The translations under genes were made by a program, and so were the position numbers. Shown piece by piece: positions 23,035 through 62,576 of a stretch of DNA of 64,000 bases (positions are counted from its first letter, which is position 1; each line of letters begins with the position of its first letter). The stretch is from Mycetocola lacteus (GTDB lineage Bacteria > Actinomycetota > Actinomycetes > Actinomycetales > Microbacteriaceae), in the NCBI RefSeq assembly GCF_003667575.1, contig NZ_RCUY01000009.1, positions 62,001 through 126,000 on the forward strand. The letters are read 5' to 3'. The notes beneath the pieces are model-generated. The model was given only the letters and a program-made list of their open reading frames with translations, made no database searches and was not told the origin of the DNA.

Positions 23035-23109
23035 TTACGGACGGAGGCACCCGAAAGCTGCGCTCCTTTACCCATGACACGAGGGGCCTGGCACACCCGA
23101 AGGATCCCG

Positions 23110-25761
23110 ATGCGAACTCTTTCCCCGCCTCGGCTGCAATTCGACTGGACCCCCCAGGCGGCCGACGTCCTGACCTCTTTTAGTGACCCTACCGTACCCC
23201 GTGCCCTGGCCCTGGTTGGCCCGACAGGCTGTGGCAAAACGGCGATTTCCAGCCTGGTGATCGCCGATCTTGGTGAGCCCTATTCGATTCTGCGGATTCG
23301 CGGAGTTTCCTTCGGCAGCGATAGCCCCTATCTCGCGATTGCGCACCTCGTCTCGGGCACCGTGAGCCCAACCGACACTCCGGTGAGTGTGCTGCGTCGC
23401 CTGGATGAGCGGCTGCGTCAGATCTCGGCCGACCGTCCGGTACTGCTGTACATCCAGAACTTTGAACTCCTCGACTCGGCCAGCGCCGCCGTGCTGTCCA
23501 CCCTGCTCGGAGCGGGCACATATGCCGCCCTGATCACCTGCGGCCCGGTGGAGAGCCAGGCGTCGCTGATGGGGGTGATCGCCGGCGGGATGGTCGAGCC
23601 GGTCGAGATCCGTCCGCTGTCCATCCGCACCGTCCACAAGATCCTCGAGGCTGCCCTCCCGGGGACCGTGCCCTACCCGGTTGCCGAACGCCTCACCCGG
23701 GCCGCCGCCGGCAACCCGGTGCGCCTCCGAGTGCTGGTGGAACAGGCCCTGGCGGTGGAGGGTTTGCGATTTCGTGACGGTGTGTGGTCACTGAGTGGTG
23801 ACGGCGCCCTCGGGGAATCCGGCTCACGTACGGATACCGCCTTCCTCGGGGTCTATGAGCTCCTGGAGGAACACGAGCGATTCGCGATCAACGCGCTGGC
23901 GGTTTTTGAGCGGCTGAGTATCGCCGGGCTGATGGATATCGCGGCCCACGCCGACCTGGAGCAGCTCGAACGCGCCGGGCTGATCATTATCGAGGGGGAG
24001 CCGCCCCGCTATCGCCTGGCCTCCAGCACCGTGAACGCGTCCTTCCTCCGCTCGCTCAGCCCCGATTTGGTGCGAGACCTGTGGACGCAGTTCGGGCAGC
24101 GCGTCCGCGCCCTGGAGGGCACCCTTCATCCGGCCGCGATCCTCCGCGCCGCCCGCGGTGGCGTGCGGGTGACCCGGGAAGAACTGTACGCGGCGGCGTT
24201 TACCGCGACCGGCGACCAGCGCCCCGACCTCAGCGACCTCCTGCTGGACCAGCTGGGTCCCGACACCGCGGAAACCTTCCTGGTCCGCGCGGGCAATGCG
24301 CGCCAGCGCGGTAATATCCAGGCCTCGGAGGAGTTCGCCAGCCGCGCCGAACTCTCGGCTTCGGTGACGGCCGAGGCCGCGCAAGCGCGCGCACTGCACA
24401 TCCTCAATACGCTTGAGGATCGCGCGCAGGTAGCCGAGTCCGAACGCCTGTTGGAGGCGTTTACGCAGTGGCAGCGTGAACACGCCTCCACCGATCCGGT
24501 GGCGCTCTCGCTGGTGGTGTATTGCGACATGCTGATCGCCTCCCACCGCGGACGCTGGCAGCGAGTGCGCGAGATTGCCGAGGAGAAGCGGTTTGCCCGG
24601 CTGACCCCGGACATGACCAACGTGTGCTTAATGCTGGTGGCCGAGGCCCTGTGTGTGCAGGGCCTCCAGAATGAGGGGATCGCGCTCGCGCGTCGGGTGT
24701 TCCCGGACACGCTCAACCTGGTCTGGTTCGAGTTGCGTGATACCTCGGTGATGGCCATGTGGCGGGTACTCCAGGTGCGCGGCGAGTGGGATGAGTGCCG
24801 ACACCTGGCGGCCGTGCTGCGCGAGCGTTTCCCGCAGGCCGGGAGTACCTATGCGGCGGTGGGCGAGCTGGTGGACGGATTCCTCGCGCTCCTCCAGGGA
24901 CGTGCCGAACGGGCCGAGCGTCCGATGCGGACCGCCCGCGCGCTCTTTGCCCAGCTGGATCCCGCGGAAGGAGCCGAGCTCGGGCGCGCGATGGAACCAC
25001 TGCTGGCCGATCACTCGGCCGAACCCGCCCCCGATATCGAGTTTGACCTGCAGGGCGTGCCGCGTCCGCTGGTGTTTCTGGGGGAGACGATCATGACCCG
25101 GACAGAAGCGGACGGGCTCGACCTGCCTGCGGCGATCTCGGCCCTCGTCGCCCAGGCCGACGCCCACCATCTGCGAGCCGAGTTTGGCTATCAGGTGTTC
25201 CCCGCCGCCGGGCTGCTCCGGCTCCTGCTGGCTGCCGATCCGGCCGCCCTGGCCGGCGCCGGGGAGAGTGTTCAGCGTGCCCGTGCCGTCATTTCTCGGG
25301 CGCTGAGCCACAGCGAGGGACCGCTCTCGCGAGCGTGCGCGGCGTTCGAAATCGGGTTGGATCGCCGTGATGTCTCGGGAGCCGTGCGTGCGGGAACCCG
25401 ACTGAGCGACATGCTCGGGCTCGGCGCGTTTGTGTATTCCGGTGAGGACGAGGCCGTGGGCGCGGAATCCGCGAGTGACGTCGTCCACAATGAACCCGAG
25501 GGGCTGTCCGAACGGGAGCGGCACGTGTTTGCGGCGCTACGCGATGGCCTGCGCAATCGAGAGATTGCGGCGATCCTCGGCATTTCCCCGCGCACGGCCG
25601 AGGGGCACGTTCAGCGCTTGTACCGCCGACTCGGGGTGCGTTCACGCACCGAGTTGCTCGCCGCCTATCCGCTCGAGGGGCACGGCGTTACCTCGATTGA
25701 TGCCGGGACTTCTGCCCACCCCCTCGCCGCGGTCACCCAGCTGCGAGGGCGTGCGGGATGA
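23110..25761 (+). CDS. Large LuxR-type regulator with N-terminal ATPase-like domain (LAL), copy 1
   Basis: The 883-residue protein fits the LAL/MalT-like class. Walker A is intact at about residues 36-45 (VGPTGCGKTAI). The Walker B region reads LLYIQNFELLD, so the usual acidic pair before the conserved LLD is missing. A long helical, TPR-like middle follows. The C-terminal LuxR helix-turn-helix starts LSERERHVFAALRDGL and has REIAAILGISPRTAEGHVQRLY. I chose ATG 23110 with GAAGGA six bases upstream rather than ATG 23074. The next regulator gene overlaps by four bases. Likely target: the surface-protein operon downstream. Confidence 0.88.
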   Translation: MRTLSPPRLQFDWTPQAADVLTSFSDPTVPRALALVGPTGCGKTAISSLVIADLGEPYSILRIRGVSFGSDSPYLAIAHLVSGTVSPTDTPVSVLRRLDERLRQISADRPVLLYIQNFELLDSASAAVLSTLLGAGTYAALITCGPVESQASLMGVIAGGMVEPVEIRPLSIRTVHKILEAALPGTVPYPVAERLTRAAAGNPVRLRVLVEQALAVEGLRFRDGVWSLSGDGALGESGSRTDTAFLGVYELLEEHERFAINALAVFERLSIAGLMDIAAHADLEQLERAGLIIIEGEPPRYRLASSTVNASFLRSLSPDLVRDLWTQFGQRVRALEGTLHPAAILRAARGGVRVTREELYAAAFTATGDQRPDLSDLLLDQLGPDTAETFLVRAGNARQRGNIQASEEFASRAELSASVTAEAAQARALHILNTLEDRAQVAESERLLEAFTQWQREHASTDPVALSLVVYCDMLIASHRGRWQRVREIAEEKRFARLTPDMTNVCLMLVAEALCVQGLQNEGIALARRVFPDTLNLVWFELRDTSVMAMWRVLQVRGEWDECRHLAAVLRERFPQAGSTYAAVGELVDGFLALLQGRAERAERPMRTARALFAQLDPAEGAELGRAMEPLLADHSAEPAPDIEFDLQGVPRPLVFLGETIMTRTEADGLDLPAAISALVAQADAHHLRAEFGYQVFPAAGLLRLLLAADPAALAGAGESVQRARAVISRALSHSEGPLSRACAAFEIGLDRRDVSGAVRAGTRLSDMLGLGAFVYSGEDEAVGAESASDVVHNEPEGLSERERHVFAALRDGLRNREIAAILGISPRTAEGHVQRLYRRLGVRSRTELLAAYPLEGHGVTSIDAGTSAHPLAAVTQLRGRAG

Positions 25762-28418
25762 AAGACGGGACGGAAGCCGTCGAGGTTCGTGACGCGGTAA
25801 TCATTCGCGACCGTGCGGTGAGCGTGCTGCGCGAGCCCGCGAGCGCCGGGGTGTGCCTGGTTGCCCCCGGTGCCATCGGCCTGCCGGATCTGGCGCGGGA
25901 AACCTGCGCCGCCGCGGGGATCGATAAAACCATGAGGGTGGTGGGAAATCGTAGCCTGTCCGATGTGGCCTACGGTGCGCTGGCGCCCTTTCTCGGACCG
26001 ATTCTGGATACCCCCGATCCCGACGCCCTCACCGCGCTCTCGGGCTTCCGCGGCGAGATCGAGCGACGCCGCCAGGGTGCGCCGTTTGTCATTATCGTGG
26101 AGCAGGTTGAGCTGTTGGACTCGGCCAGCGCCGGCCTGCTCGCGCAGATTTCGATCGAGGCGTGGGTGCACCTGATGATCCTGGCACCGGGTGCCGCCCG
26201 AATCCCGCGCGATCTGCGGGCGCTCTTGCTTGAGGGGCAGCTGGTCGAGTTTTCGATGACCTCGCTCAGTACCGACGGCGTCATCGCGTTTGCGCACAGC
26301 CGACTCGAGGGCATCGTCCCGTGGGCGGTGGCCGACCGCTTTGTCCGGATGGGTGGGGCTGCACCGCAAATTCTTGAGGGCGGGCTGCGCGAGAGCGTAC
26401 GCACCGGCGCACTGGTCGCCACCGAGGGCGTCTGGCGATTTGTGGATGAGCCGCGGCTCGGATCGGCGAGTGTCTGGCAGCTGCGCGGGATGCTTGCCCA
26501 GCTGAGTCCCGAGGAAACCGACGCACTCAGTGCGGTGGCCCTGGCCTTCGCGATTCCGACCAATCTCCTGGGGGAAATCTTCGGGGGCGATGCCGTACGC
26601 GCACTGCGGGCGACCGAGCTGCTGGTGTCCATCGAACGGGACGGACTGGATGAGTCGGGGGAGGAGTTGCTGCGGATCCCCACCAATCTGATTGCCGCGG
26701 TGCTGCGCGAGTCCCTGTCACCCTCGGCTAGTCGCGCGCTCTGGCAGCGAGTATTCTCGCGGTTGCCGTTGCCGCGGCTCCCCGAGTCAACCCTGCGCTA
26801 TGTGGAGTGGACAATCGAGTGTGGTGGCGTGGTGGACACCCAGTCCCTCGGCATTTTGGCGACGTTGGCCAACCGGGTCGGCCGGCCCGAGCTGGCGCTG
26901 CGGGCGGTTGCCCTGGATCGCGAGACCCCTCGCTCTACGGCCATGCAGGTGCAGCGCGCCCGTGCACACTTCTACCTGGGCGAATCCGCAGCGGCGTTGC
27001 AGATCATCGATGAGATTTTCATCGGCCCTGGCTCGCTGAACGATATTCAGCGCATCGCCACCCTGCTGGCACAGATCTACGTCACCACCGGCCAGGGGTT
27101 TGACCAAATTGAGGTCATGCTGGATCGATGGACCACGATGGCAGAGGGCACCAACTATCACGGTGTGCTCGCTCAGCATGCCTGGGCGATGCGTGCCCCC
27201 GCCTTCCTGATGACCAGTGGGGACTATCGCGCCGCCCGTGCCGCGGTGGAGCCACTCCTGCAGCGATCGGGAAATATCAACGCGGAAACCGTGTTGATCG
27301 GAGCCCTCACCGGGGAAATCCTCGCGGTGACCGGAGACTTCGAGCGGTCGCTAGAACAGCTGGAATCCGCACTCGAGCTGGTCATGAACACGGCGGAATT
27401 GGCCAACTACGGGGGCTTCCTGTTTACCCGAATCGCGCTTGTGCAGTGCTCGTACGCCGACTGGGAGCGGCAGGATCGACTCCTGGAACGTCTGGCCGAG
27501 GAGCAAAATGCCTGGATGATTCGACAGGGAGTTGTCGTCGAGCTGTTGCGTGCGGTGCAGAACATGCAGGAGGGTGATTTTGAGGCCGGGGCGCGGCACT
27601 CTCAAGCGGCGGTTGTCCTGGCCCGTGAGAGCGACCCCGAGCGCCTTCGTCCACTGGTCCTCGCCACCGCCGCGTTTTCCGCGGTGGTCTGTCAGGATTT
27701 GGACCTCGCCGCCGCCTACCTGGCCGAGTACGCCACTCTTGAATACGGGGGAACGCCCCTCACCGACACCCTGACCCGAGCATACGCGTCCTATGCACGG
27801 TATCTGGTGGACCCGAGTCTGGGGCTTGATGAGCTGCGAGCGGTTGCACGAGAGGCCGGGGAACAGGGGCACTATCCTGGTCGCGTTCAAATCCTGCTGC
27901 TCCTGATGGATTTGGGGGACCGCGAGTGCCTGGACGAGATGACGGAGATTACCGAGGGCGTCAGCGACAGGATGGGACGAGCCGCCCGTGCGTTGGCCCA
28001 GGCGCTGCGCACAGGACTCGCCTGCGACTTTGTGGGTGCCGCAGAGATCGCGATCGAGTGTTCCCAGCACTACATTGCCGCCCGCGCACTGACCAGCGCG
28101 TTCCTGGCCCTGCGCGTGGTTCCCGAACGTGCCCTGCATCGGCGGGCTCTGGACGCGCTTGCCCTGCTGGCACCGAGTGCCCGGGCTTTGGACCCGATGC
28201 TCAACGCCATGCGGGAGGCCACGGTGCTCTCCGATCGTGAGCGGGAGGTGGCGCGCCTGGTGGCGCGTGGACTCACCAGCCGGGAGATTGCCCGGGCGCT
28301 CTCGCTCTCGGACCGCACGGTCGAGGGCCATGTACAGCGGGTTCTCCTCAAACTGGGGCTGGGCTCGCGCGAGCGCCTGCTTGACGCGAACCTGGGCTTC
28401 ATCGGGGATACGGCATAG
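25758..28418 (+). CDS. Large LuxR-type regulator, copy 2, with degenerate P-loop
   Basis: This 886-residue paralogue has the same size and layout as its neighbour, and the C-terminal HTH is intact (LSDREREVARLVARGL, SREIARALSLSDRTVEGHVQRVL). The P-loop position, however, reads CLVAPGAIGLPDL, without the Gly-Lys-Ser/Thr, so it should not bind ATP in the normal way. The second motif is VIIVEQVELLDSASAGLL, echoing FELLDSASAAVL of copy 1. The start overlaps copy 1 as ATGA, so the two are made together. An active/inactive pair suggests a heteromeric regulator. A perfect terminator follows. Confidence 0.85.
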   Translation: MKDGTEAVEVRDAVIIRDRAVSVLREPASAGVCLVAPGAIGLPDLARETCAAAGIDKTMRVVGNRSLSDVAYGALAPFLGPILDTPDPDALTALSGFRGEIERRRQGAPFVIIVEQVELLDSASAGLLAQISIEAWVHLMILAPGAARIPRDLRALLLEGQLVEFSMTSLSTDGVIAFAHSRLEGIVPWAVADRFVRMGGAAPQILEGGLRESVRTGALVATEGVWRFVDEPRLGSASVWQLRGMLAQLSPEETDALSAVALAFAIPTNLLGEIFGGDAVRALRATELLVSIERDGLDESGEELLRIPTNLIAAVLRESLSPSASRALWQRVFSRLPLPRLPESTLRYVEWTIECGGVVDTQSLGILATLANRVGRPELALRAVALDRETPRSTAMQVQRARAHFYLGESAAALQIIDEIFIGPGSLNDIQRIATLLAQIYVTTGQGFDQIEVMLDRWTTMAEGTNYHGVLAQHAWAMRAPAFLMTSGDYRAARAAVEPLLQRSGNINAETVLIGALTGEILAVTGDFERSLEQLESALELVMNTAELANYGGFLFTRIALVQCSYADWERQDRLLERLAEEQNAWMIRQGVVVELLRAVQNMQEGDFEAGARHSQAAVVLARESDPERLRPLVLATAAFSAVVCQDLDLAAAYLAEYATLEYGGTPLTDTLTRAYASYARYLVDPSLGLDELRAVAREAGEQGHYPGRVQILLLLMDLGDRECLDEMTEITEGVSDRMGRAARALAQALRTGLACDFVGAAEIAIECSQHYIAARALTSAFLALRVVPERALHRRALDALALLAPSARALDPMLNAMREATVLSDREREVARLVARGLTSREIARALSLSDRTVEGHVQRVLLKLGLGSRERLLDANLGFIGDTA

Positions 28419-28442
28419 GCACCAAGCGTCCCCCACATGATT

Positions 28443-28482
28443 GACCGGCGTGCACCCAGATGGGTGCACGCCGGTCGTTTTT
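28443..28482 (+). terminator. Terminator after the LuxR pair
   Basis: A perfect 15-bp stem (GACCGGCGTGCACCC and complement), a 4-base loop and GTTTTT follow the stop of copy 2 by 24 bases. It separates the regulators from the surface operon, which therefore needs its own promoter. Confidence 0.92.
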
Positions 28483-28692
28483 GCGTAAGAAAGGCCCCTC
28501 AAACGAGGGTCTACGCGGGCGGGGCACGTAGTTTTTGCGGTGTTAATGCGTAGGTTCGCGGCCCACCTACGTAGTTTTCTGAGGTCTCCCTGAACAAAAC
28601 ACGTAGCGATACGCATCGCACTACAAACTATCGCTTTTTAGATTGTTCCTAGATGTGCGCCCCCTGCACACATGAGTCAAAAGGAACGTTCG
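28483..28692 (+). promoter_or_regulatory. Control region with repeated CGTAG boxes
   Basis: This A/T-richer, 210-base gap before the VWA gene contains CGTAG at 28527, 28549, 28570 and 28602 (starts 22, 21 and 32 bases apart, near two, two and three helical turns) and CTACG at 28511 and 28567. The longer core ACGTAGTTTT occurs twice (28526-28535, 28569-28578). The spacing suggests binding of a regulator on one DNA face, plausibly the adjacent LuxR pair. A promoter probably lies between 28606 and 28670, but no convincing -35/-10 pair was fixed. Confidence 0.55.
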
Positions 28693-31600
28693 GTGAAGAA
28701 CAGGAATTTCAGGATTGCGACGGCCGCCACGGTGGCGCTCGCGCTGATCGTGGGTGGTGCCTCACTGAGCGCCTACGCGGCCAGCGGCGCGGCAACCCCC
28801 GAGGCTGCCCCCTCCGAAGCCGCACTCGCGGTCACCGCCAATGAGAACATTCGCGCGGTGGATGATGCCCCGGCACAGACACCCGCCCCTCAGATCGGAA
28901 CCGAGGCCCCGGCAGCCCAGCCGACTCGTCCCGCCGAAACGACCGCCCCCGCGGCCGCACCGACGCCCGGGACCGCGAGCACCACCGCGCCCGAGACTCC
29001 GGCCGAAACCGGTAGCAAGGGAACCGTCGAGTCCGCCCGGACACCCCTCGCCGGGGAGTCTCTGGTGGCGGATGCGGGCGTTGTTACCCCGTTGGCGGCA
29101 CCGACGGTGGTGCCGCCCGGCAGCAAGGCCGTGATCAACGTGCAGGTTGGTGGCACCCGCACCGCCGGTGGTGTGGTTGGACCGCAGCCGGGTGTGGGGT
29201 TGCGCCTGGTAACCCACAGTGGCGGACCCTCCAATACGCTGTATGCCCCCTGGGCAACCTGTACCTCCGATGCCGACGGCAACTGTGCAATCCTGGTGCC
29301 GTCCAACTTCACCTTCCCGCGTAACTCAAATGCTCCGTGGGTAGCCCTGCAGAGCACCCCCGCGGGCGTGTTCTCGATTACGATGACGCGGACAGGTACC
29401 CAGAACACCGCCGTGTCCACCCCCTACGCGTTCCAAACCTCTTCGGGTGATTACGCTCAGGGAAAAATTACCAAGTACCCGGCGGTTGGCTCCTCCGACT
29501 CGAGTGTGGCCCTGAACAGCACGGGAATCTTCCAGACCTCCCAGGACAACCCGGCGCTTGCCCCCAAGTGTGGGCTGAACATCGGCCTGCTGGTTGACCT
29601 GTCATCCTCGCTGAGCGGATCTCAGGCTGCCCTGCGCACCGCCACGACCGGATTCGTGGACGCCCTGACCGGCACCCCGACCCGCCTGGGCATCTGGACG
29701 TTCGGGACCACCTCCCCGGCCGCCGGATCTGCCAACACCAACTCGGAGATGGTGAGCCTGGCCACCCCTCAGTCCGCCGCACCGATCCGCACCAAGGCCA
29801 ATGGCCTCACCGTGCCCAGCGATTCGGGCACCAACTGGGATGCGGGACTGCGCGCGATCACCTCCAGTAACGAGGCGCTCGATCTGGTGCTGGTCCTGAC
29901 CGACGGTGCTCCGACCTTCCGACTGAGCACGGGCGGCGCCCTGAACGGCGTGGGCAATAACACCACTGTGGCCGACATCGAGGCCGCAGTATTTAGCGCC
30001 AACGCGCTCAAGGCCAAGGGCACCACCGTCATGGCACTGGGCATCGGGTCGGCCTTCACCGCAGCCAACATCGAAAACCTCAAGTCGATCAGTGGCACCC
30101 GCGAGGGCGTCGACTATCTCAAGGTTGCCGACTATAGCGCCCTGAACGCGCAGCTGAAGGCGTTGGCCGGCGCACAGTGCGACGGAACAATCAACGTCAC
30201 CAAAACCGTCAAGACCGCCGCGAACCCCGCCGGTTCACCGGCCTCGGGATGGACCCTGAACGTGGATGATGCGGCCTCGAAAAACGTGGCCCCCGCCTCC
30301 GCAGTGACCGGCTCGACCGGCGTGGCCTCCTTCAAGGTCAACAACCTCTCGATTGGAACGCCCCGCCCCATCACCATTGCCGAAACCCAGCAGCCCGGAT
30401 ACGTCCTGGAACAGCAGGGTGGCAAGAACGCCGTCTGTACCCGCGCCGACACCAAGGCCGCCGTCACGGTGACCAACGTGGGTGCCACCGGCTTTACCGT
30501 CGACGCGATCGCCAACACCTCGATCAGCTGCCAGCTCGTCAATAAGGAGGTCACCGCGACGGTGACGGTCACCAAGAAGTGGGTGGTCAACGGCCAGAAC
30601 TTCGCCCACGGCAGCCAGCCCTTTGGTGCCGCCTCCTACACCCTGAATGGTGCGGCCGCCCGCACCGACTTCGGAACCAAACAGACCGGATTCACCGCCG
30701 GACAGAGCGTGACCCTGGCCGAGCCCGTCCCCACGCAGATTCCCTCGGGCTGCCGCCTACTGGGAGTTGACGGTCAGGAGACCCGCGTGCTCGTGGTTGG
30801 CGACAACGCCTTCCAGCTCACCAACCGCTTTGAGTGCACCAGCACGCTCCAGCTGAACAAGGTGGTGCGTGGAGGAACCGCTCAGCCCTCCGACTTCACC
30901 CTGAAGGCCACCCCCGGTGGTACCGGTACTAGCGGGGTCAGCGTCGCCGTCACCCCGGGCACCGTGGTGCTCTCCGAGAGCGGCGGACCCAGTGAATACC
31001 GCCCCGTTGTGGCCGCGGGAACCACGCTGGTGCCCGGTGCCGTGGGCTCCTGGGTCTGCGAGCGGGATTCGGGTTCCGGGTTCGGTGGAATCGCCGATGG
31101 ACGCAACGGCTCGATCACCGTTGGGTGGGGCGATAAGCTGCGCTGCACGGTGACCAACGAGGCCGCGACCCTGTCCCTATCCAAGGTGGTGCTCAACGGC
31201 ACCGACACCAACGCCGTCCCGGGAAACTGGACGCTCTCGGCCCTCACCAAGCCCAGCGACGGCCCGATACGGGGCTTCTACGCGACCGGATCCGCACGGC
31301 CCACCGCGATTCCCGTCACGATTGCCCCGGACCGCGAGTACACACTCTCCGAGATCGGACTGGTAAACGGATTTGTGCGCGCCTCACTGATCTGCGATGA
31401 CGGCACCCGGACCTTCACCCCCGAGAACGACACCATTCGGGTTGCGGCAAACACGTCGCTGCACTGCGAGTTCACCAACGCCGCGGTGCCCAAGCTGACC
31501 ATCGTCAAGACCGGGTGGGAACTATCAGAGATCATCCCCGGCACCGGACCGATTGGGTCTCCGGTGATCGACACCACGATCCCGCGCCCCACCGGCAGCC

Positions 31601-31788
31601 AGGTCCAGTGGACCTACCGGGTCAGCAACACCGGTGCACTCCCGATCGAGAACATCTCGGTCCTCGATAACAAGCTTGCGGCGAACGCCGTGAACTGCCC
31701 CGCCGCGAACACCCGCGACGATGGCACCCGATTCCTCGCAGCCGGCGCGTCCATGACGTGCTGGGCGCGTGGATCCCTCACCCCGTAG
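28693..31788 (+). CDS. Secreted VWA-domain surface protein with tandem Ig-like/prealbumin-like repeats
   Basis: The 1031-residue protein starts with a signal peptide (MKNRNFRIATAATVALALIV), then an Ala/Pro/Thr-rich stalk to about residue 110. A von Willebrand A domain spans ~290-498, with the MIDAS motif DLSSS near 301 and TDG in LVLTDGAPTF. Prealbumin-like/DUF5979-type modules follow (~500-930), and one last domain reads QWTYRVSNTGALPIENISV. The chain ends right after this domain (GASMTCWARGSLTP): no LPxTG motif or membrane helix. GTG 28693 with AAAGGAA upstream fits better than ATG 28672. It is the first gene of the SipW locus and a likely adhesin or fibre tip. Confidence 0.82.
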   Translation: MKNRNFRIATAATVALALIVGGASLSAYAASGAATPEAAPSEAALAVTANENIRAVDDAPAQTPAPQIGTEAPAAQPTRPAETTAPAAAPTPGTASTTAPETPAETGSKGTVESARTPLAGESLVADAGVVTPLAAPTVVPPGSKAVINVQVGGTRTAGGVVGPQPGVGLRLVTHSGGPSNTLYAPWATCTSDADGNCAILVPSNFTFPRNSNAPWVALQSTPAGVFSITMTRTGTQNTAVSTPYAFQTSSGDYAQGKITKYPAVGSSDSSVALNSTGIFQTSQDNPALAPKCGLNIGLLVDLSSSLSGSQAALRTATTGFVDALTGTPTRLGIWTFGTTSPAAGSANTNSEMVSLATPQSAAPIRTKANGLTVPSDSGTNWDAGLRAITSSNEALDLVLVLTDGAPTFRLSTGGALNGVGNNTTVADIEAAVFSANALKAKGTTVMALGIGSAFTAANIENLKSISGTREGVDYLKVADYSALNAQLKALAGAQCDGTINVTKTVKTAANPAGSPASGWTLNVDDAASKNVAPASAVTGSTGVASFKVNNLSIGTPRPITIAETQQPGYVLEQQGGKNAVCTRADTKAAVTVTNVGATGFTVDAIANTSISCQLVNKEVTATVTVTKKWVVNGQNFAHGSQPFGAASYTLNGAAARTDFGTKQTGFTAGQSVTLAEPVPTQIPSGCRLLGVDGQETRVLVVGDNAFQLTNRFECTSTLQLNKVVRGGTAQPSDFTLKATPGGTGTSGVSVAVTPGTVVLSESGGPSEYRPVVAAGTTLVPGAVGSWVCERDSGSGFGGIADGRNGSITVGWGDKLRCTVTNEAATLSLSKVVLNGTDTNAVPGNWTLSALTKPSDGPIRGFYATGSARPTAIPVTIAPDREYTLSEIGLVNGFVRASLICDDGTRTFTPENDTIRVAANTSLHCEFTNAAVPKLTIVKTGWELSEIIPGTGPIGSPVIDTTIPRPTGSQVQWTYRVSNTGALPIENISVLDNKLAANAVNCPAANTRDDGTRFLAAGASMTCWARGSLTP

Positions 31789-31847
31789 TCACACAGAACC
31801 ACTGCTACACCTCCACCTTCTGCAACACCTCACATAAAGGAATCATC

Positions 31848-32468
31848 ATGAAGATCTCAACTCGCGGTATCGTCGCCGGCGCTCTGGGCCTCGGGCTCCT
31901 GGCCGGTGGCAGCACGTTCGCTCTCTGGAGCTCCACCACCGACGCCGACGCCGGCAAGATCAACACCGGTAACCTGCACGTTGCCGTGGCCGGTGCCCCG
32001 GTCTGGACCGACGTGTCGGCCGATGTGGCCGGTGCACCGGTTGCCATTCCCGACGCCACCAAGTTCAAGACCGTCCCCGGGGACACTCTGAACCGCACCC
32101 AGAACATCGATGTCACCCTGGCCGGTGACAACATCAACGCCACCCTCAACGTGACCTCCAGTGCGCTGAGCGCCCTGGATGCCGAGGGTGCGGCCAAGGC
32201 CGGAACCGGCGGGCTGAGCGCGACCTACATCGTGCTCGACAAGAACGGTCAGGCCGTCCCGCTGGTAGGCGGGGCCCCCTCGGCCAAGACCACACTGGGA
32301 ACCCCGGTGACCCTCAAGGTACCCAAGAACGCCGGCACCACCCCGGACACCTACACCGTGAAGATCGAGCTGGCTTTTGACAAGACCGCAACCGACCTCA
32401 CCTACGCCAACGCGCAGGCGGTCCTGGGCAACGTCAACTTCTCGCTCGAGCAGAGCACCCGAGGCTAG
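31848..32468 (+). CDS. SipW-dependent exported protein, TasA/CalY-like (fibre subunit candidate 1)
   Basis: The 206-residue protein has the alternate-type signal peptide: short basic start (MKISTRG), hydrophobic core GIVAGALGLGLLAGGS and then TFALWSS, where SipW-type peptidases cut. The rest is a beta-rich, Asn/Thr/Val-rich domain (KINTGNLHVAV, DTLNRTQNIDVTLAGDN) like TasA/camelysin relatives that form extracellular fibres. ATG 31848 has AAAGGA seven bases upstream; a longer frame from 31758 lacks a signal peptide. It lies 59 bases after the VWA gene and upstream of the matching peptidase. Fibre formation is inferred from family resemblance. Confidence 0.8.
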   Translation: MKISTRGIVAGALGLGLLAGGSTFALWSSTTDADAGKINTGNLHVAVAGAPVWTDVSADVAGAPVAIPDATKFKTVPGDTLNRTQNIDVTLAGDNINATLNVTSSALSALDAEGAAKAGTGGLSATYIVLDKNGQAVPLVGGAPSAKTTLGTPVTLKVPKNAGTTPDTYTVKIELAFDKTATDLTYANAQAVLGNVNFSLEQSTRG

Positions 32469-32543
32469 TTCCTCCCTCGGTGGGGTGGGCGCACCCCCTG
32501 CCCACCCCACCGCAGCATTCCCCACAGTTGAAAGGCCTCACCC

Positions 32544-33308
32544 ATGAAACGCACCCTTGCCGCCGTCACTGCGCTGGCTCTCGGAGCGACCCTCGGCACC
32601 GCCGGCGCCGCGACCTGGGCGCTCTGGTCACAGCAGACCTCAGTGCACGACGCCGTGACGATCGGCTACGCGGGATTCGCCGTCGGCAACCCCGGTGCCA
32701 CCCCCGCACAGATGGACCGTGCCTTCGAGCCGCAGACCGCGGTCACCTGGTCGGCCAACAACGCCGAGGGTGGTAATCCGATCACCGCCCTGCAAACCAA
32801 AAACTTCGCCGACGCGGTAATCCGGATAGACGGACAGTCCCAGGGTAATCGTGGCCTCGCATACGACCTGCGAGGTGCCCACATCGTTGGCGGGGACGAC
32901 TCGAGCCTGGTTGATGGCGTGCGCGTTCGGATCGTGCGAGCCGGCACGCCCGCGGGATGCGCACCCGCCCTGAACGCCGACACGGGCACCCTCTATGAGG
33001 GCGCTCTGTCCGCGGCCCGGATTCCCGCCCGCGAACTCGTCTCCTCCGCCTACAGCACGGCCGGATGGGACACCCCGGAACGGGAGTTCCTGTGCCTGCG
33101 ACTGAGTCGCCCGGTTGCCCTGAACACCACCTACACCAACATCGGCTCGGCAACCGGAACGTACACCAACCCGGAGACCGGCGCCCAGGTGAGCGTCTCG
33201 GACGAGGACCGCTGGTCGATCGGACTGGGATATGACACCCGGGCGTTCCAGGCGACCTTCTCCCTGGACTTCGGGTTCGAGACCTTCCGCGGTCGGTTTG
33301 CCGGATAA
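32544..33308 (+). CDS. SipW-dependent exported protein, second candidate subunit
   Basis: This 254-residue protein has the same kind of leader: MKRTLAAVTALALGATLGTA followed by ATWALWSQQ, matching the ALWS cleavage block of the previous gene. The mature part differs: it is larger, with YAGFAVGNPGA, three cysteines (paired cysteines possible: PAGCAPAL, REFLCLRL) and a beta-rich C-terminus (YDTRAFQATFSLDFGFETF). A GAAAGG ribosome site precedes the ATG. It may be a minor or capping subunit, or a separate exported protein processed by the same peptidase, whose gene starts 6 bases after its stop. Confidence 0.75.
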   Translation: MKRTLAAVTALALGATLGTAGAATWALWSQQTSVHDAVTIGYAGFAVGNPGATPAQMDRAFEPQTAVTWSANNAEGGNPITALQTKNFADAVIRIDGQSQGNRGLAYDLRGAHIVGGDDSSLVDGVRVRIVRAGTPAGCAPALNADTGTLYEGALSAARIPARELVSSAYSTAGWDTPEREFLCLRLSRPVALNTTYTNIGSATGTYTNPETGAQVSVSDEDRWSIGLGYDTRAFQATFSLDFGFETFRGRFAG

Positions 33309-33314
33309 CGCATC

Positions 33315-33905
33315 ATGTCCATCCTGATCACACCCACCGAGCCGGAGACGGATCACGTCGATGCCAACCGGAACCACGCCTCGCGCGGCTTCTGGTTCGG
33401 AGTGTGGCGGGGCGCCGGGGCGGTGCTCCTCGCCGTGCTGATCCTGATCAGCGCCGCGGTCACCGTGGTGCCGCTGATCATCGGGGCAGTGCCCCTCACC
33501 GTACTGACCGGGTCGATGCAGCCCACGATTCGCCCCGGTGACGTCGTGGTGTCGACCCCGGTCCAGGCAGCCCAGCTGAGCGTGGGGGACGTGGTCACCT
33601 TCCAGCCCATCTCCGATGACCCCACCCTGATCACCCACCGTATTCGCTCGATGAGCGCGGGAGACTCGGGCGTGCGGCTAATCACCCGCGGGGATGCCAA
33701 CGGCGCGGATGATCCCGAAATCAGTGCCGATCAGGTCCGCGGACGTGTGCTCTACACCGTGCCGTACGTGGGCTGGGTCACCAACCTGGTCGGCGGCAAC
33801 GTTCGCGGCCCCCTCATTACCCTCGCCGGCCTGGGACTGGTCGGCTACGCAGTCTTCACCCTCGTGCGTCGTCCCCGCGGCGCCACCGAAAGGAACACAC
33901 CATGA
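33315..33905 (+). CDS. sipW: Signal peptidase I, SipW/ER type (Ser/His)
   Basis: The 196-residue membrane protease has an N-terminal helix (~33-60) followed by TGSMQPTIRPGDVVV with the catalytic Ser67. The general-base position is a histidine, His108 in LITHRIRSM, instead of the lysine of ordinary bacterial LepB; this is the ER/archaeal type to which SipW belongs. DVVTFQP and ITRGDANGADD complete the fold, and a C-terminal helix (ITLAGLGLVGYAVFTLV) anchors the other end. Set between its likely substrates, it should process the ALWS-type leaders of the two preceding proteins. The stop overlaps the next ATG by four bases. Confidence 0.9.
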   Translation: MSILITPTEPETDHVDANRNHASRGFWFGVWRGAGAVLLAVLILISAAVTVVPLIIGAVPLTVLTGSMQPTIRPGDVVVSTPVQAAQLSVGDVVTFQPISDDPTLITHRIRSMSAGDSGVRLITRGDANGADDPEISADQVRGRVLYTVPYVGWVTNLVGGNVRGPLITLAGLGLVGYAVFTLVRRPRGATERNTP

Positions 33906-34645
33906 AACGGATCACCGTTGCCGCCGTCGCGGGCGCACTCGCCCTCACGGTTGCGGGTCCCGCGCTCGGCGCGCAGGCGGCCGATGAGATTGGGCTCTCC
34001 TGGGATGGAAGTTCGGGATTCGCCGCGGAACTTGACCGCCCGGTGTTTGTGACACCGCGCGTGGTTCCGGGTGACTCCGATGCGCGTTCGTTTGTGGTGC
34101 GCAACCAGGGCGACACCGCCGCGGTACTCACCGCCAAGATCGTCAACGTACGCCTCACCGGAAACCCCGCGGATGAGTACTACCGTGATTTCACCGTCAA
34201 CAGCCTCCCGGTGATCGACCGTTATGGCACGGACACCACGATCCTCACCACCCGCGTTCAGCCCGGCGGCACCGCGACCGTCAACCTCGACTACGACCTG
34301 CCCGAGGCTGCGATCACCGGCAACTATCCGGTGGCCAGCGATCAGGCCGTGTCGGTCGCGTTTGATGTGCGATTGACCCTGGCAGGAGAGAGCCGAATCG
34401 ACGGACCCACCACGAGCCCGACCCCGACACCGACTGCTCCCACACTTTCACCCACTCCGTCCGCTCCGGGCGCGGCCACCCAGCCCCCCGCGGCCGGACC
34501 GCCGGCCGCAGCCGGCCCCGGAACGCTGGTACGCACCGGCGCCGAAGGATGGCCGCTGATTGCCGCAGTCGGCGCGCTGCTCGCCGGTGGCGGTCTGGCG
34601 CTGCGACGCAAAATGAACGGTGCCGGCACCGGCCGCACCCCCTAG
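33902..34645 (+). CDS. Secreted cell-surface protein with LVRTG-type C-terminal sorting-like tail
   Basis: The 247-residue protein has a conventional signal peptide ending near ALGAQA, a beta-sandwich domain (~30-160: RPVFVTPRVVPGDSDARSFV, VRNQGDTAAVLTAKIVNV), then a Thr/Pro/Ala-rich stalk (~165-205). The C-terminus is LVRTG, a hydrophobic stretch (PLIAAVGALLAGGGLAL) and RRK. This is the layout of sortase substrates, with LVRTG in place of LPxTG. No sortase gene is in the window. It overlaps sipW by four bases and is the last gene of the locus; a wall anchor for the fibre would fit but is inference. Confidence 0.78.
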   Translation: MKRITVAAVAGALALTVAGPALGAQAADEIGLSWDGSSGFAAELDRPVFVTPRVVPGDSDARSFVVRNQGDTAAVLTAKIVNVRLTGNPADEYYRDFTVNSLPVIDRYGTDTTILTTRVQPGGTATVNLDYDLPEAAITGNYPVASDQAVSVAFDVRLTLAGESRIDGPTTSPTPTPTAPTLSPTPSAPGAATQPPAAGPPAAAGPGTLVRTGAEGWPLIAAVGALLAGGGLALRRKMNGAGTGRTP

Positions 34646-34649
34646 ACCA

Positions 34650-34700
34650 CCGCAGGCGGTGATCCGTGGTCGTCATGGGTCCCGACTCACCGCCTGCGGG
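34650..34700 (+). other. Inverted repeat after the surface operon
   Basis: CCGCAGGCGGTGA (34650-34662) and its exact complement (34688-34700) form a 13-bp stem with a 25-base loop immediately after the operon's stop codon. It may help termination or protect the mRNA 3' end, together with the next hairpin. Confidence 0.55.
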
Positions 34701-34706
34701 GAACTC

Positions 34707-34745
34707 CGCCCCCTTCGACCCCTGTCGGAGGGGGCGGTTTGTTTA
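34707..34745 (+). terminator. Terminator of the surface operon
   Basis: A 14-bp stem (CCGCCCCCTTCGAC with GTCGGAGGGGGCGG, one G-U pair), a 4-base CCCT loop and TTTGTTT make a textbook intrinsic terminator. Confidence 0.9.
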
Positions 34746-34797
34746 ACTCCGACGCGCGACGGGTCGACCCGTGTTGGAGGGGGCGGTTTGTTTAACC
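34728..34797 (+). repeat. 21-bp direct repeat from a duplicated terminator arm
   Basis: The terminator's right arm and T-tract (GGAGGGGGCGG through TTTAAC, 34728-34748) recurs exactly at 34777-34797, 49 bases on, without its left arm but next to a palindrome ACGGGTCGACCCGT. It is probably a small local duplication. Confidence 0.7.
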
Positions 34798-34914
34798 CGG
34801 GCTTGCCCCCGCGCGCATGCCGGATCCGGAATCGGGTCGGGGATAGGCTGGACACACCGGTCATCCACCCCACACCACAAGTGTTGAGCGCGCGGCCGAG
34901 GCAAGGAGCACACA

Positions 34915-36060
34915 ATGAATCCGTCCAAGACCACCGCGTCCACCACCACATCCAACGCCGCCGAACGCACCCAGATCGACCAGATCACCCACACGCTGGA
35001 ATCCCTGGCGCGCGATCCCGCCAGTGTCGGCGTCGCGGGTCGCATTCCCGGCTCGGCCCTCGCCCTGGCCGGACTCACCCCCGCCGGGGAGCGTATCGAT
35101 TTTCTGCACGGACGCACGGCCCTGGAGGAATTTGGGCCCGAGATCTCCCGTCCGCTCGCCGCCGAGCACCGGTTCGATTTCGCCTCGCTCTCCAAGCTCT
35201 TTGTGTCGGTGTTGGCGCTCAGCGTGGTGGAATCGGGGCTGGTGGATCCAGACGCCCCAATCGGCGAGGTCCTCGGTGATGCGCTACATCGCGATGCCCG
35301 CCGGATCACCCTGATGAACCTCCTGGCACACGATTCGGGCCTCCCGGCTAATACCCGGTTCTGGGAGCAGGATCCGGGTGCCGACGCCCTTTGGGCGCAC
35401 GTCCTGGGAACCGTCCCGGTGCGGGCACCGGGGGAGGCTCACGAGTACTCCTGCATCGGCTACAACATCCTGGGGCGAATCCTGGAAACGGTGAGCGGGG
35501 ACGACCTGCCGACCCTGATGCGCACCCGCGTGCTGGAGCCGCTGGGCACCCGAGACACCGGGTATCACCCGATTGATCCGGGCCTCGCGGTGGCCACCGA
35601 GGAGCAGCCCGGTCGCGGCCTGGTGCAGGGGAGCGTGCACGACGAGCTGTCCTTCTTCCTCGGCAGGCCCAGTGGCAACTCGGGTCTGTTTGGTCCCGCC
35701 GATGATGCCCTCGCGCTCGGACGGATGATCCTGGCCGACGGACTCGGTGATCGTGGCCGTGTCCTTTCACCCGCCTCGGTTGCCCTGCTGGCCGCCCCAC
35801 AGATTTTTGGCACAAATGCGGCGGGTACCTTCGGTCAGGCCGTCGGCTTTCGAGTGCACGATGCCGAATTTATGGGTGCCGTCCCGGGCCTGGGACACAC
35901 CGGATTCACCGGCACCATGCTTGTGGTGGACCCCGTGCACAACAGCGCCGTGGCGCTCCTGACTAACCGCGTGCATCCGGGGCGCGCCCGGGCGAACGTG
36001 TTCGCCGTGCAGCGTCTGGCCAGTGAAACCGTGTGCCTTGCGGGTGTGACAGCGCGATAA
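34915..36060 (+). CDS. Beta-lactamase-fold serine hydrolase (class C/esterase family)
   Basis: The 381-residue protein has the SxxK motif at Ser91-Lys94 (FASLSKLF), followed by MNLLAHDSGLP, the family's 'LL.HTSGLP' block. The usual YSN triad position reads YSC (EYSCIGYNILG), so the Asn is replaced by Cys, and GHTGFTG supplies the HTG box near the end. No signal peptide is visible, so it is more likely a cytoplasmic esterase or peptidase than a secreted beta-lactamase. AAGGAG lies six bases before the ATG. A TetR gene follows in the same direction after 37 bases. Confidence 0.85.
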   Translation: MNPSKTTASTTTSNAAERTQIDQITHTLESLARDPASVGVAGRIPGSALALAGLTPAGERIDFLHGRTALEEFGPEISRPLAAEHRFDFASLSKLFVSVLALSVVESGLVDPDAPIGEVLGDALHRDARRITLMNLLAHDSGLPANTRFWEQDPGADALWAHVLGTVPVRAPGEAHEYSCIGYNILGRILETVSGDDLPTLMRTRVLEPLGTRDTGYHPIDPGLAVATEEQPGRGLVQGSVHDELSFFLGRPSGNSGLFGPADDALALGRMILADGLGDRGRVLSPASVALLAAPQIFGTNAAGTFGQAVGFRVHDAEFMGAVPGLGHTGFTGTMLVVDPVHNSAVALLTNRVHPGRARANVFAVQRLASETVCLAGVTAR

Positions 36061-36097
36061 TCGGAGGGTCAGGTCCGCCGTGCGATATTATGACAGG

Positions 36098-36700
36098 ATG
36101 AGTGACTCCACCCCGAAACCCCTCCGCGCCGACGCCGAACGCAACCGCGCGGTCCTCCTGAATGTCGCCGGGGAACTGTTCGCCGAACACGGCGTCGGGG
36201 GATCACTTGAGGATGTTGCGCGCCGCGCCGAGGTGGGTATCGGGACGCTCTATCGCCGCTTTCCCACGCGTGATGATCTGATCATCGCGCTGTATAGCGA
36301 ACAGCTGGAACACTTTGTGACGATTGCCAGCGACGCCGTGAACTTCGCCGACCGCGACGCCGCCCGCGCCTTCCGTGCGTTTGTGCACTACACAATCGAG
36401 CTGCAGTCGGCCGATCGCGGCTTCTCAGATGTCCTGCTGGATGGCTTCGGCGCGCCGCGAATCTTCGTGGATGAGCATGAGCTTATTCGCGCGGGAATCA
36501 CCGAGCTCTTCGATGCCGCCCGCGACGCCGGGGTCATTCGAGCGGATGTGTCGGAGCGCGACTTCCCAATGATCCTGCGCGCCACCGCACACCTGGCCGG
36601 CGCCCCCGAGCGCGCCGATGAGCTGGCGCGCCTCGCCGGGCTGCTGATTTCCGCACTGACCGGCGATTCCAGCATCCCGCTTCCCGCCGTCGAACGGTAA
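36098..36700 (+). CDS. TetR family transcriptional regulator
   Basis: The 200-residue protein starts with a TetR helix-turn-helix: NVAGELFAEHGVGGSLEDVARRAEVGIGTLYRRFPTRDDLI in the first 65 residues. A helical ligand domain with a C-terminal portion like TetR_C33 relatives follows. I chose ATG 36098; an upstream GTG at 36080 is possible but gives a non-family extension. It may regulate the preceding serine hydrolase gene. No operator palindrome was recognised in the 37-base gap. Confidence 0.88.
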   Translation: MSDSTPKPLRADAERNRAVLLNVAGELFAEHGVGGSLEDVARRAEVGIGTLYRRFPTRDDLIIALYSEQLEHFVTIASDAVNFADRDAARAFRAFVHYTIELQSADRGFSDVLLDGFGAPRIFVDEHELIRAGITELFDAARDAGVIRADVSERDFPMILRATAHLAGAPERADELARLAGLLISALTGDSSIPLPAVER

Positions 36701-61385: not shown

Positions 61386-62576
61386 TCAGGCCTGTGTGGA
61401 CGGATCGTGCTGAGCCTCGAGCCACTCATGCACCAGGCGCTCCCAGCGATCCCGGTCGAAGTTCCATAGCTTGGTGTGCCGGGCCACGCTGAATTCCTCC
61501 AGCGTGACAATGTCCGGGCGCTCGATTGCCAGGGCCTGTGAGGCCTCGGCGGGCACCACGTCGTCATCCACACTGTGCAGGATCAGGGTGGGGATGCGCA
61601 ACTCGTCGGCACGGGCGACCAGATTCATCCGGTCAATGCGGACAGGCTCACCCAGCCCGGTGATTCGCGACGCCCATCCGGCACCGAGCAGGTGCACGGC
61701 GATATCCCGAACCGGCCGGGGCAGTCGACGCTCACGCGCCTGGAAGGCCAGAACCTCGGCCCAGTCGATCACCGGGGAATCCAGCAGCAGCGCGGAGATC
61801 TCGGCACCGTGCTCGCCATTCAGCACGGTCTGTAACGAGACCGCGCCACCCATCGACCATCCCATCAGCACGATGCGCGCGGCCGATCGGGCGCGAACCC
61901 AGCCCAGGGCCGCATCCACATCGTGCCATTCGGTCAGGCCCAGCCCGTAACGGCCATCGGCGCTGGCGGGGGCATCGCCGTCATTGCGGTAGGACAGCAG
62001 GAGCACGTTGTACCCGGCGGCCTGGGCGGTGGGAACCACGCGCAGGCCCTCGCCGCGACGGGTGCCCCGGCCGTGCACCACCACCAGCCAGGGTGCGTTC
62101 TCCTCCTCCACCGGGAACAGCCAGGCGGGCGCCACGCCGTTCTCCACCGGAATGTGGACGTTTTCCCAATGCTCGGCCACGGTGGTGGGGTCGGCCTCGA
62201 CCCAGGCGGTGAAGCGTCCGCCACCGTGCCCCACCAGGCCACGCAGGTTCTGCGCGGGCAGTTCACGGGTGACCGTATGCTCCCCCACCGCCAGCACCTC
62301 ACCGATGCGTACCAGGCGCTCGGGACGGCCGTACCAGATGCCGTACTGTCCGGGCAGGACCGTGAAGTCGGTGCGGGAGAGCACGATGGTGCCCTCTATC
62401 TCGTTGATTCCCAGGACCTGGGTGTCGGGCGCATCAGGTCCCGGAGGCGTCACCACCTCGCGGGCCAGGATCGCCGAAACCGTGGCGATTCCGGCCGCCA
62501 CGACGGCGGTGGTGGCGGCGAGAGCCGCCGCAGGCAGGATTAACGCGCGAGCTCCGGCGCGGCGTGAAGAATTCAT
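61386..62576 (-). CDS. Membrane-anchored alpha/beta hydrolase
   Basis: The 396-residue protein has a single N-terminal membrane helix (ALILPAAALAATTAVVAAG) that may also serve as a signal anchor. An N-terminal extension leads into an alpha/beta-hydrolase domain (~160-390) with WLVVVHGRGTRRGEGLR, nucleophile elbow GWSMGG, catalytic Asp in HSVDDDVVP and His in ARHTKLWNFD. It is esterase or lipase-like in layout; no closer substrate is evident. I chose ATG 62576 over TTG 62582. Alone, divergent from the DUF3000 gene. Confidence 0.88.
   Translation of the reverse strand: MNSSRRAGARALILPAAALAATTAVVAAGIATVSAILAREVVTPPGPDAPDTQVLGINEIEGTIVLSRTDFTVLPGQYGIWYGRPERLVRIGEVLAVGEHTVTRELPAQNLRGLVGHGGGRFTAWVEADPTTVAEHWENVHIPVENGVAPAWLFPVEEENAPWLVVVHGRGTRRGEGLRVVPTAQAAGYNVLLLSYRNDGDAPASADGRYGLGLTEWHDVDAALGWVRARSAARIVLMGWSMGGAVSLQTVLNGEHGAEISALLLDSPVIDWAEVLAFQARERRLPRPVRDIAVHLLGAGWASRITGLGEPVRIDRMNLVARADELRIPTLILHSVDDDVVPAEASQALAIERPDIVTLEEFSVARHTKLWNFDRDRWERLVHEWLEAQHDPSTQA

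Follow-up and report, generated by a model that had tools for sequence, protein, structure and literature searches.

The DNA stretch analysed here, called the window, comprises 64,000 nucleotides from Mycetocola lacteus, a member of the Microbacteriaceae (Micrococcales), and corresponds to positions 62001–126000 of contig C14 in a genome of 3.8 Mb; coordinates below are window positions on the forward (+) strand. It contains an operon of five open, co-directional genes (28672–34645) encoding, in this order, a large protein with a VWA domain (the VWA adhesin), the candidate main fibre subunit sub1, a second protein with a SipW-type leader (sub2), a SipW-like signal peptidase (sipW) and a wall-anchor candidate (anch). 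The adhesin ends in a cut-off domain, and when proteins with this domain were compared among related genomes, those which stop at the same point were almost all encoded directly upstream of a sub1 gene. The reading favoured here, tentatively and at slightly less than even confidence, is that the operon builds a tethered surface fibre whose adhesin is completed by a strand of a subunit.

The VWA adhesin (28672–31788, 1038 residues) is composed of a Sec leader, a stretch rich in proline and alanine, the VWA domain (29578–30147), a beta-rich stalk and the cut-off DUF7507 domain (31588–31776). The true start of the gene may be the GTG at 28693, which is preceded by a ribosome-binding-like AAGGA. 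The VWA match of 23.1 bits is just below the Pfam cut-off of 23.8, and the metal site looks intact by eye (DLSSS, then T and D). DUF7507 (PF24346), which we take to be immunoglobulin-like (Ig-like), is the last recognisable domain, and its match breaks off at position 75 of 105, the stop codon following three residues further on. Eight adhesins from SipW loci were scanned, and seven of them matched PF24346 with ends at positions 73–78 of 105, the match at L052 being below the Pfam cut-off. The bodies of the cut-off adhesins vary from 646 to 1142 residues, and one has no VWA match. The eighth adhesin, at L100, has an LPITG tail and no DUF7507 domain, as if a sorting tail and a cut-off domain were two ways of attachment replacing each other. 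Over 98 genomes DUF7507 matches ended at positions 95–105 in all matches listed, which were the strongest and therefore favour complete domains. What is missing from the cut-off domains is a stretch resembling YTVTQADxDAGSVTNTATATG together with the next strand, both present in 13 complete domains aligned, six further loci on the other strand having been left out, and the segment preceding the W-x-Y-x-V strand is longer in the cut-off domains than in the complete ones. FimH-type adhesins are terminal on chaperone-usher pili and carry an incomplete C-terminal Ig-like domain; an incomplete domain of this sort is likewise found at the very end of the VWA adhesin. An earlier note on this DNA did not mention the cut-off C-terminal domain, and no description of a cut-off adhesin was found in the open-licence literature searched.

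A profile of the cut-off end was built from seven members, all chosen from sub1 loci, and used to search 249 and 398 Microbacteriaceae genomes as well as 394 genomes of the class, in draws which overlap. From the first search 30 loci and from the other two 36 further loci were examined, one per genome, giving 66 in total, and a stop inside the match or within 9 residues was counted as early. Fourteen of the 66 loci had such an early stop, and in 13 of these sub1 was found directly downstream (E 2.6e-19 or better). A Fisher value calculated on the first 30 loci was set aside, as seven of the 11 positive cases there were profile members from sub1 loci. In the remaining 52 loci the domain continues, and sub1 was found in the downstream stretch of none of them. 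Fifty of the continuing proteins extend by at least 67 residues before a stop codon or the limit of the stretch is reached; the other two (L295 and L296) have a short flank and a visibly completed domain; a weak match to the anch profile occurs downstream in three of the 52 (L282, L283 and L298). Seven early stops come from outside the profile, six of them with sub1. The 13 linked genomes are spread over eight genera: four are Mycetocola, two further genera have two genomes each, and five have one. Genes for sub1, SipW and anch are present in all 13, G254 being without a sub2 match and its anch without an LPXTG-like tail. A protein with an LPLTG anchor, encoded nearby at the G312 locus, has a weaker, internal match to the cut-off profile.

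The gene following the adhesin, sub1 (31848–32468, 206 amino acids), encodes a SipW-type leader (31848–31922), a 15-residue tail (31923–31967) and a predicted jelly-roll body. A structural model (m133e6eed9717), built from 8 sequences only, yielded a jelly-roll with a pLDDT of 72.8, in which mature residues 1–15 are below 50 and disordered. A Foldseek search with this model found the TasA fibre (8aur) at rank 13 (E 8.8e-3, prob 0.97). TasA aligned with the sub1 profile from the mature N-terminus to near the end (score 24.8, P 0.0021), the best of 60 column shuffles scoring 13.3 and the reversed control 10.8; with a profile of 42 other sub1 relatives the score of TasA was 24.1. Within the tail, all 43 sequences compared have W as residue 2 and I, V or L as residue 13, and W2 and I13 align on F29 and F39 of TasA. 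These two, together with I32, are the three donor-strand contacts named for TasA in PMC9674648. A TasA-like working of sub1 is plausible. In further searches neither the sub1 profile nor a Bacillota relative found anything credible in the PDB, viral contigs scanned with two sub1 relatives gave no hit, and a TasA query had no match in a plasmid collection. Matches to the camelysin family PF12389, found in 13 of 149 genomes of the class of G099, were considered as the source of a TasA profile and discarded as too distant from TasA.

Operons of the sub1 type are not rare in the Microbacteriaceae. TIGR04089, the family to which sub1 belongs, matched in 32 of 99 related genomes at E 1e-3, and relatives of sub1 were found in 72 of 249 Microbacteriaceae genomes at E 1e-8. 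Two groups of loci were compared. The first comprised 44 loci, all places of a TIGR04089 match but one (G006:C1:825361), and its open reading frames were classed with profiles that started from the proteins of the window and were extended on the 44 loci themselves; the second, taken from 39 additional genomes that mostly stood high in the list of sub1 relatives, comprised 40 loci and was not used for profiles. SipW was present in 41 of 44 and 39 of 40 loci, an anch relative in 33 of 44 and 25 of 40, and a VWA relative in 9 of 44 (on the strand of sub1) and 3 of 40, so that SipW accompanies sub1 in 80 of 84 and anch in 58 of 84 loci; these counts are lower bounds because some stretches end at a contig end. 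The genome itself has a second SipW locus on contig C7 (495000–510000; L049, 4194–9223) with three sub1-type genes, a 305-residue secreted protein and an LSETG-tailed anch, and similar loci occur in G001, G002 and G003. Ricin-type lectin proteins are encoded at two SipW loci of other genera (L060, 9819–12059, 746 residues; L100, 5821–6843, 340 residues), one of them also with DUF11 and fn3 domains. They are possible adhesins of those systems; their N-termini look, by eye, like alternate leaders, as if adhesins there were donors instead. No paper on this type of operon in actinobacteria was found in the open-licence literature searched.

The export part of the operon is ordinary. The sipW product (33315–33905, 196 amino acids) is a signal peptidase I of the ER/archaeal (Ser/His) type, which scored 85.8 bits against TIGR02228 (cut-off 51.85) and carries the motifs TGSMQP with the serine and THRI with the histidine; among 42 related open reading frames S-M-x-P was present in 41 and the downstream H-R in 40. 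It scored 75.5 bits against NF046067, the equivalog of Bacillus SipW, which is far below the cut-off of 190, and its closest named relatives are from Mycetocola saprophilus (91%) and M. tolaasinivorans (68%). The leader sites are STFA-LWSS in sub1 and TWA-LWSQ in sub2, and both would be cleaved by the peptidase of the operon. As sub1 exceeds the cut-off of TIGR04089 (exp_by_SipW_III; 81.9 bits, cut-off 60, model positions 1–179 of 179), and is thus a member of it, leader and peptidase form a pair of a described kind. Against TIGR04088, the SipW-dependent leader, sub1 scored 23.6 bits (cut-off 19) and sub2 15.8 bits, the leader of the latter being recognised by eye.

The body fold of sub2 (32544–33308, 254 amino acids) was not recognised. 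Its model reached a pLDDT of 44 with no reliable fold. With the sub1 profile sub2 scored 19.9 (P 0.023; best of 40 shuffles 15.3, P 0.15), and the P value rose to 0.22 after removal of the first 15 residues, which argues that the likeness is confined to the tail. A TasA fold for sub2 was rejected on these grounds.

The last gene, anch (33902–34645, 247 amino acids), encodes a Sec leader, a beta-rich domain, a proline-rich linker, LVRTG (34526–34540), a transmembrane segment and RRK, and is a candidate anchor with a beta-rich domain. Its score against TIGR01167 (LPXTG anchor) is 15.9 bits, exactly the cut-off. Of the anch relatives of the two locus groups, 31 of 35 and 16 of 26 carry a crude L-x-x-T/S-G pattern close to the C-terminus; most of the others, by eye, simply end in a transmembrane segment or have a variant, for instance IAATG. 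The core domain of ten anch proteins had no Pfam match over cut-off, one protein carrying a separate DUF11, and four anch proteins run against NCBIfam gave anchor motifs or noise below cut-off only; the relatives form a family unnamed in the Pfam and NCBIfam scans tried. There is no sortase in the operon, and the one sortase match of the genome is on contig C9, by eye beside genes for a trpG-like protein and a Ser/Thr kinase; such a sortase would be of class E, preferring LAxTG. The anch domain aligned with sub1 from mature residue 15 on, excluding the tail (P 2.4e-7; with the roles swapped P 2.7e-6, 40 shuffles all scoring 11.2 or less), and on this ground anch was at first read as an anchored subunit that could accept a strand but not donate one. 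An independent set from the second group gave 4.7e-4, with 0.031 as the best of 200 shuffles, and anch of the second group against sub1 of the first gave 1.1e-5. The first reading of these data, anch as a TasA-fold protein without a donor strand, was weakened by the value of 4.7e-4 and by the negative control given below, and is kept as one possibility. Two side observations concern the same family. At C14:174281–174511 (L077, L110) the own genome has a match to the anch tail with one internal TAG in a long open frame, which points either to a disrupted surface protein or simply to the end of the gene itself, and at L315 9618–10805 (G947) a single open frame is hit by the SipW profile as well as by the anch profile and is possibly a natural fusion of peptidase and anchor candidate.

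The earlier note had described one compact operon with its own control region, containing a Ser/His signal peptidase, two proteins with matching ALWS-type alternate leaders, a large VWA protein and an LVRTG-tailed protein. All of these were found again, and the view of the operon as a SipW-type export system that brings its own substrates and a candidate wall anchor stands, peptidase and leader families being over their cut-offs. Two points are to be set right: the leader of the VWA protein is an ordinary Sec leader and not of the ALWS type, and a system with its only sortase match on another contig is not self-contained.

In the mechanism proposed, SipW would free sub1 with a 15-residue N-terminal tail acting as donor strand, as in Bacillus TasA, and sub1 units would form a chain in which each passes its tail strand to its neighbour. 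The adhesin would cap this fibre, its incomplete last domain taking the strand of sub1 or sub2 as in FimH, and anch, sorted by the one sortase of the genome, would hold the fibre to the wall; sub2 may be a minor subunit or an initiator. That a strand completes the adhesin domain is the simplest account, because the cut-off adhesin directly precedes the gene of a subunit with a putative free N-terminal strand. The boldest form of the proposal, a VWA adhesin without sorting signal whose half Ig-like domain takes up the N-terminal strand of a subunit exported by SipW and is thereby completed, with a sortase-anchored wall partner, is possible but doubtful in our estimate.

A number of findings weigh against the tethered fibre with a strand-completed adhesin. 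The profile was itself built on seven of the 13 linked adhesins, and as these had been picked from sub1 loci, the link of the cut-off end to sub1 is in part there by construction. Among the other six, G001 and G312 are near copies of profile members, while G254, G430, G480 and G947 are not close copies; for G254 and G430 the truncation is independent and the presence of sub1 is not, as both belong to the second set of sub1 loci. G480 and G947 are the only two to which the domain itself led, and both turned out to be full cassettes with sub1, sub2, SipW and anch. All 13 linked genomes share the descent of one cassette. The fourteenth early stop, in a 449-residue protein of G656 (L314, 9800–11149), is at the same point, and no match to sub1, sub2, SipW or anch was found there in 18 kb. 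The two cassettes found via the domain on one side and the selection effect and G656 on the other leave the estimate for the boldest form unchanged. The missing part, furthermore, amounts to about two strands and not one, and if adhesin and anch were both strand acceptors they would compete for the same fibre end. G656 fits with the cut-off domain being a self-sufficient short variant that needs no donor strand, in which the last strands are made up for by the longer segment that precedes W-x-Y-x-V. This explanation, which we regard as somewhat unlikely, leaves aside that 13 of 14 early stops and none of the 52 complete domains are directly followed by sub1, a contrast which descent and the choice of the profile explain in part.

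The likeness of sub1 to TasA has its own weak points. Other jelly-rolls match the sub1 model as well as or better than TasA, carbohydrate-binding modules came out on top in VIA-align 2 (Z 8.2), and TasA was not among the 50 rows obtained, which according to the tool's own remark is no evidence against it. I32 of TasA aligns with residue 5 of sub1, which is mostly S or T. A DUF7507 profile, intended as negative control, matched sub1 with P 0.0016 and a score of 24.2, about as well as TasA does, and anch with P 8.3e-6, and the likenesses may therefore be general to beta sandwiches. The earlier note had called both substrates TasA/CalY-like. In a search with the camelysin model PF12389, the check it had proposed, sub1 scored 15.8 bits (cut-off 22.5) over the leader and first strand only, sub2 gave no match at E 1, and nothing in the own genome matched at E 1e-3. 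For sub1 the description holds weakly, by leader, jelly-roll model and an alignment above 60 shuffles, and is reduced by the camelysin score and the DUF7507 control; sub2 shares the leader only. Membership of sub1 in the TasA family is no more than possible. The carbohydrate-binding modules (Z about 8) and the ricin-type lectin proteins at L060 and L100 would suit a system which forms no fibre and exports monomeric or loosely surface-bound adhesive proteins, with jelly-roll binding modules as substrates and anch and the VWA protein as separate adhesins. We consider this unlikely, as best Z values of 7 to 8 are typical of models without a clear match and the kept tail residues and the link between cut-off domain and sub1 would be left unexplained. 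A pilus in which sub1 or the VWA protein is polymerised by sortase would suit the SpaA-type domains in relatives and the VWA domain, as tip adhesins of sortase pili carry such a domain on a prealbumin-like stalk. It was rejected as highly improbable because no pilin sortase is located beside the genes, the single sortase match being on another contig, and the ends of sub1 and sub2 carry no LPXTG-like sorting signal.

The operon is flanked by two strong terminator-like hairpins, one 3' of the upstream LuxR gene (28442–28477, stem of 16 pairs, T-run) and one 3' of anch (34706–34737, stem of 14 pairs, T-run). Nine such sites were found, compared with 3.8 expected in shuffles, and these two have the longest stems. 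The gaps between the five genes are, in order, 59, 75, 6 and -4 bases. The order of all five is kept in the three other Mycetocola-genus genomes examined, which argues that the operon is more than chance. The control region (28478–28671) contains several CGTAG words and the element CGTAGCGATACGCATCGC at 28602–28619, and CGTAGC-ATACGCAT-G is kept in 4 of 4 aligned Mycetocola-genus genomes. Repeated CGTAG words and an inverted repeat GCGAT-ACGC-ATCGC between 28500 and 28619 are partly kept in four Mycetocola-genus genomes and are possible regulator sites. No sigma-70-like match was found in the control region, and an Rfam scan of 28000–35000 found nothing. Two large LuxR-type genes (23074–25761 and 25758–28418) are situated in tandem 5' of the operon with an overlap of 4 bases, PADLOC matches to both being confined to the HTH end. 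The one adjoining the operon (25758–28418, GerE 54.4 bits) is present beside it in 3 of 3 other Mycetocola-genus genomes and is a candidate controller; the first was seen in two of these stretches, the third ending before its place. On the 3' side (34915–36700) there follow the gene of a beta-lactamase-fold protein (PF00144, 171 bits) and a TetR gene, an order shared by the other Mycetocola-genus genomes.

How fibres of the TasA sort carry adhesins or attach to the wall is not settled in the literature searched. The present cassette, found in 13 genomes of eight genera, suggests testable answers, namely a cut-off adhesin beside a candidate donor and an anchor family; if true, a tip adhesin would here be attached through a donor strand in a Gram-positive bacterium. 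With FimH the adhesin has the incomplete C-terminal Ig-like domain in common and differs in lacking about two strands rather than one. Also close to the operon are the alternate-type signal peptide proteins of NCBIfam TIGR04088 and TIGR04089, among which sub1 falls by score; these models cover leader or substrate and not anchor or adhesin. In Bacillus, donor-strand exchange is the way in which TasA builds its fibres (PMC9674648), and this strand principle is common to TasA and TapA (PMC9674648, PMC10151520). Like tapA-sipW-tasA of Bacillus subtilis the operon has a dedicated SipW-type peptidase (PMC9674648, PMC10151520) and a small beta-sandwich subunit with a tail directly after the SipW cleavage site; it differs in that sub1 is below the camelysin cut-off and in having, besides, a VWA adhesin and a candidate anchor of sortase type. 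In Clostridium perfringens, sipW-bsaABCRSD produces a SipW-dependent extracellular polymer, and the BsaA polymers are mostly extracellular and independent of the adjacent sortase (PMC7395162). The combination of SipW with accessory secreted proteins and adjacent regulators is shared (PMC7395162), whereas for anch, a wall-anchor candidate, no counterpart is described for the BsaA system in the part of that paper considered. With TasA, CalY and CapP of Bacillus cereus the operon shares two subunits with SipW-type leaders and a surface partner; that system is described as independent of sortase, and CapP is processed by SipW, whereas the leader of anch is ordinary (PMC13082335). Compared with all these systems, the export module of SipW and alternate leaders is the known part, joined here by an anchor candidate and, in a minority of the loci, by the cut-off adhesin.

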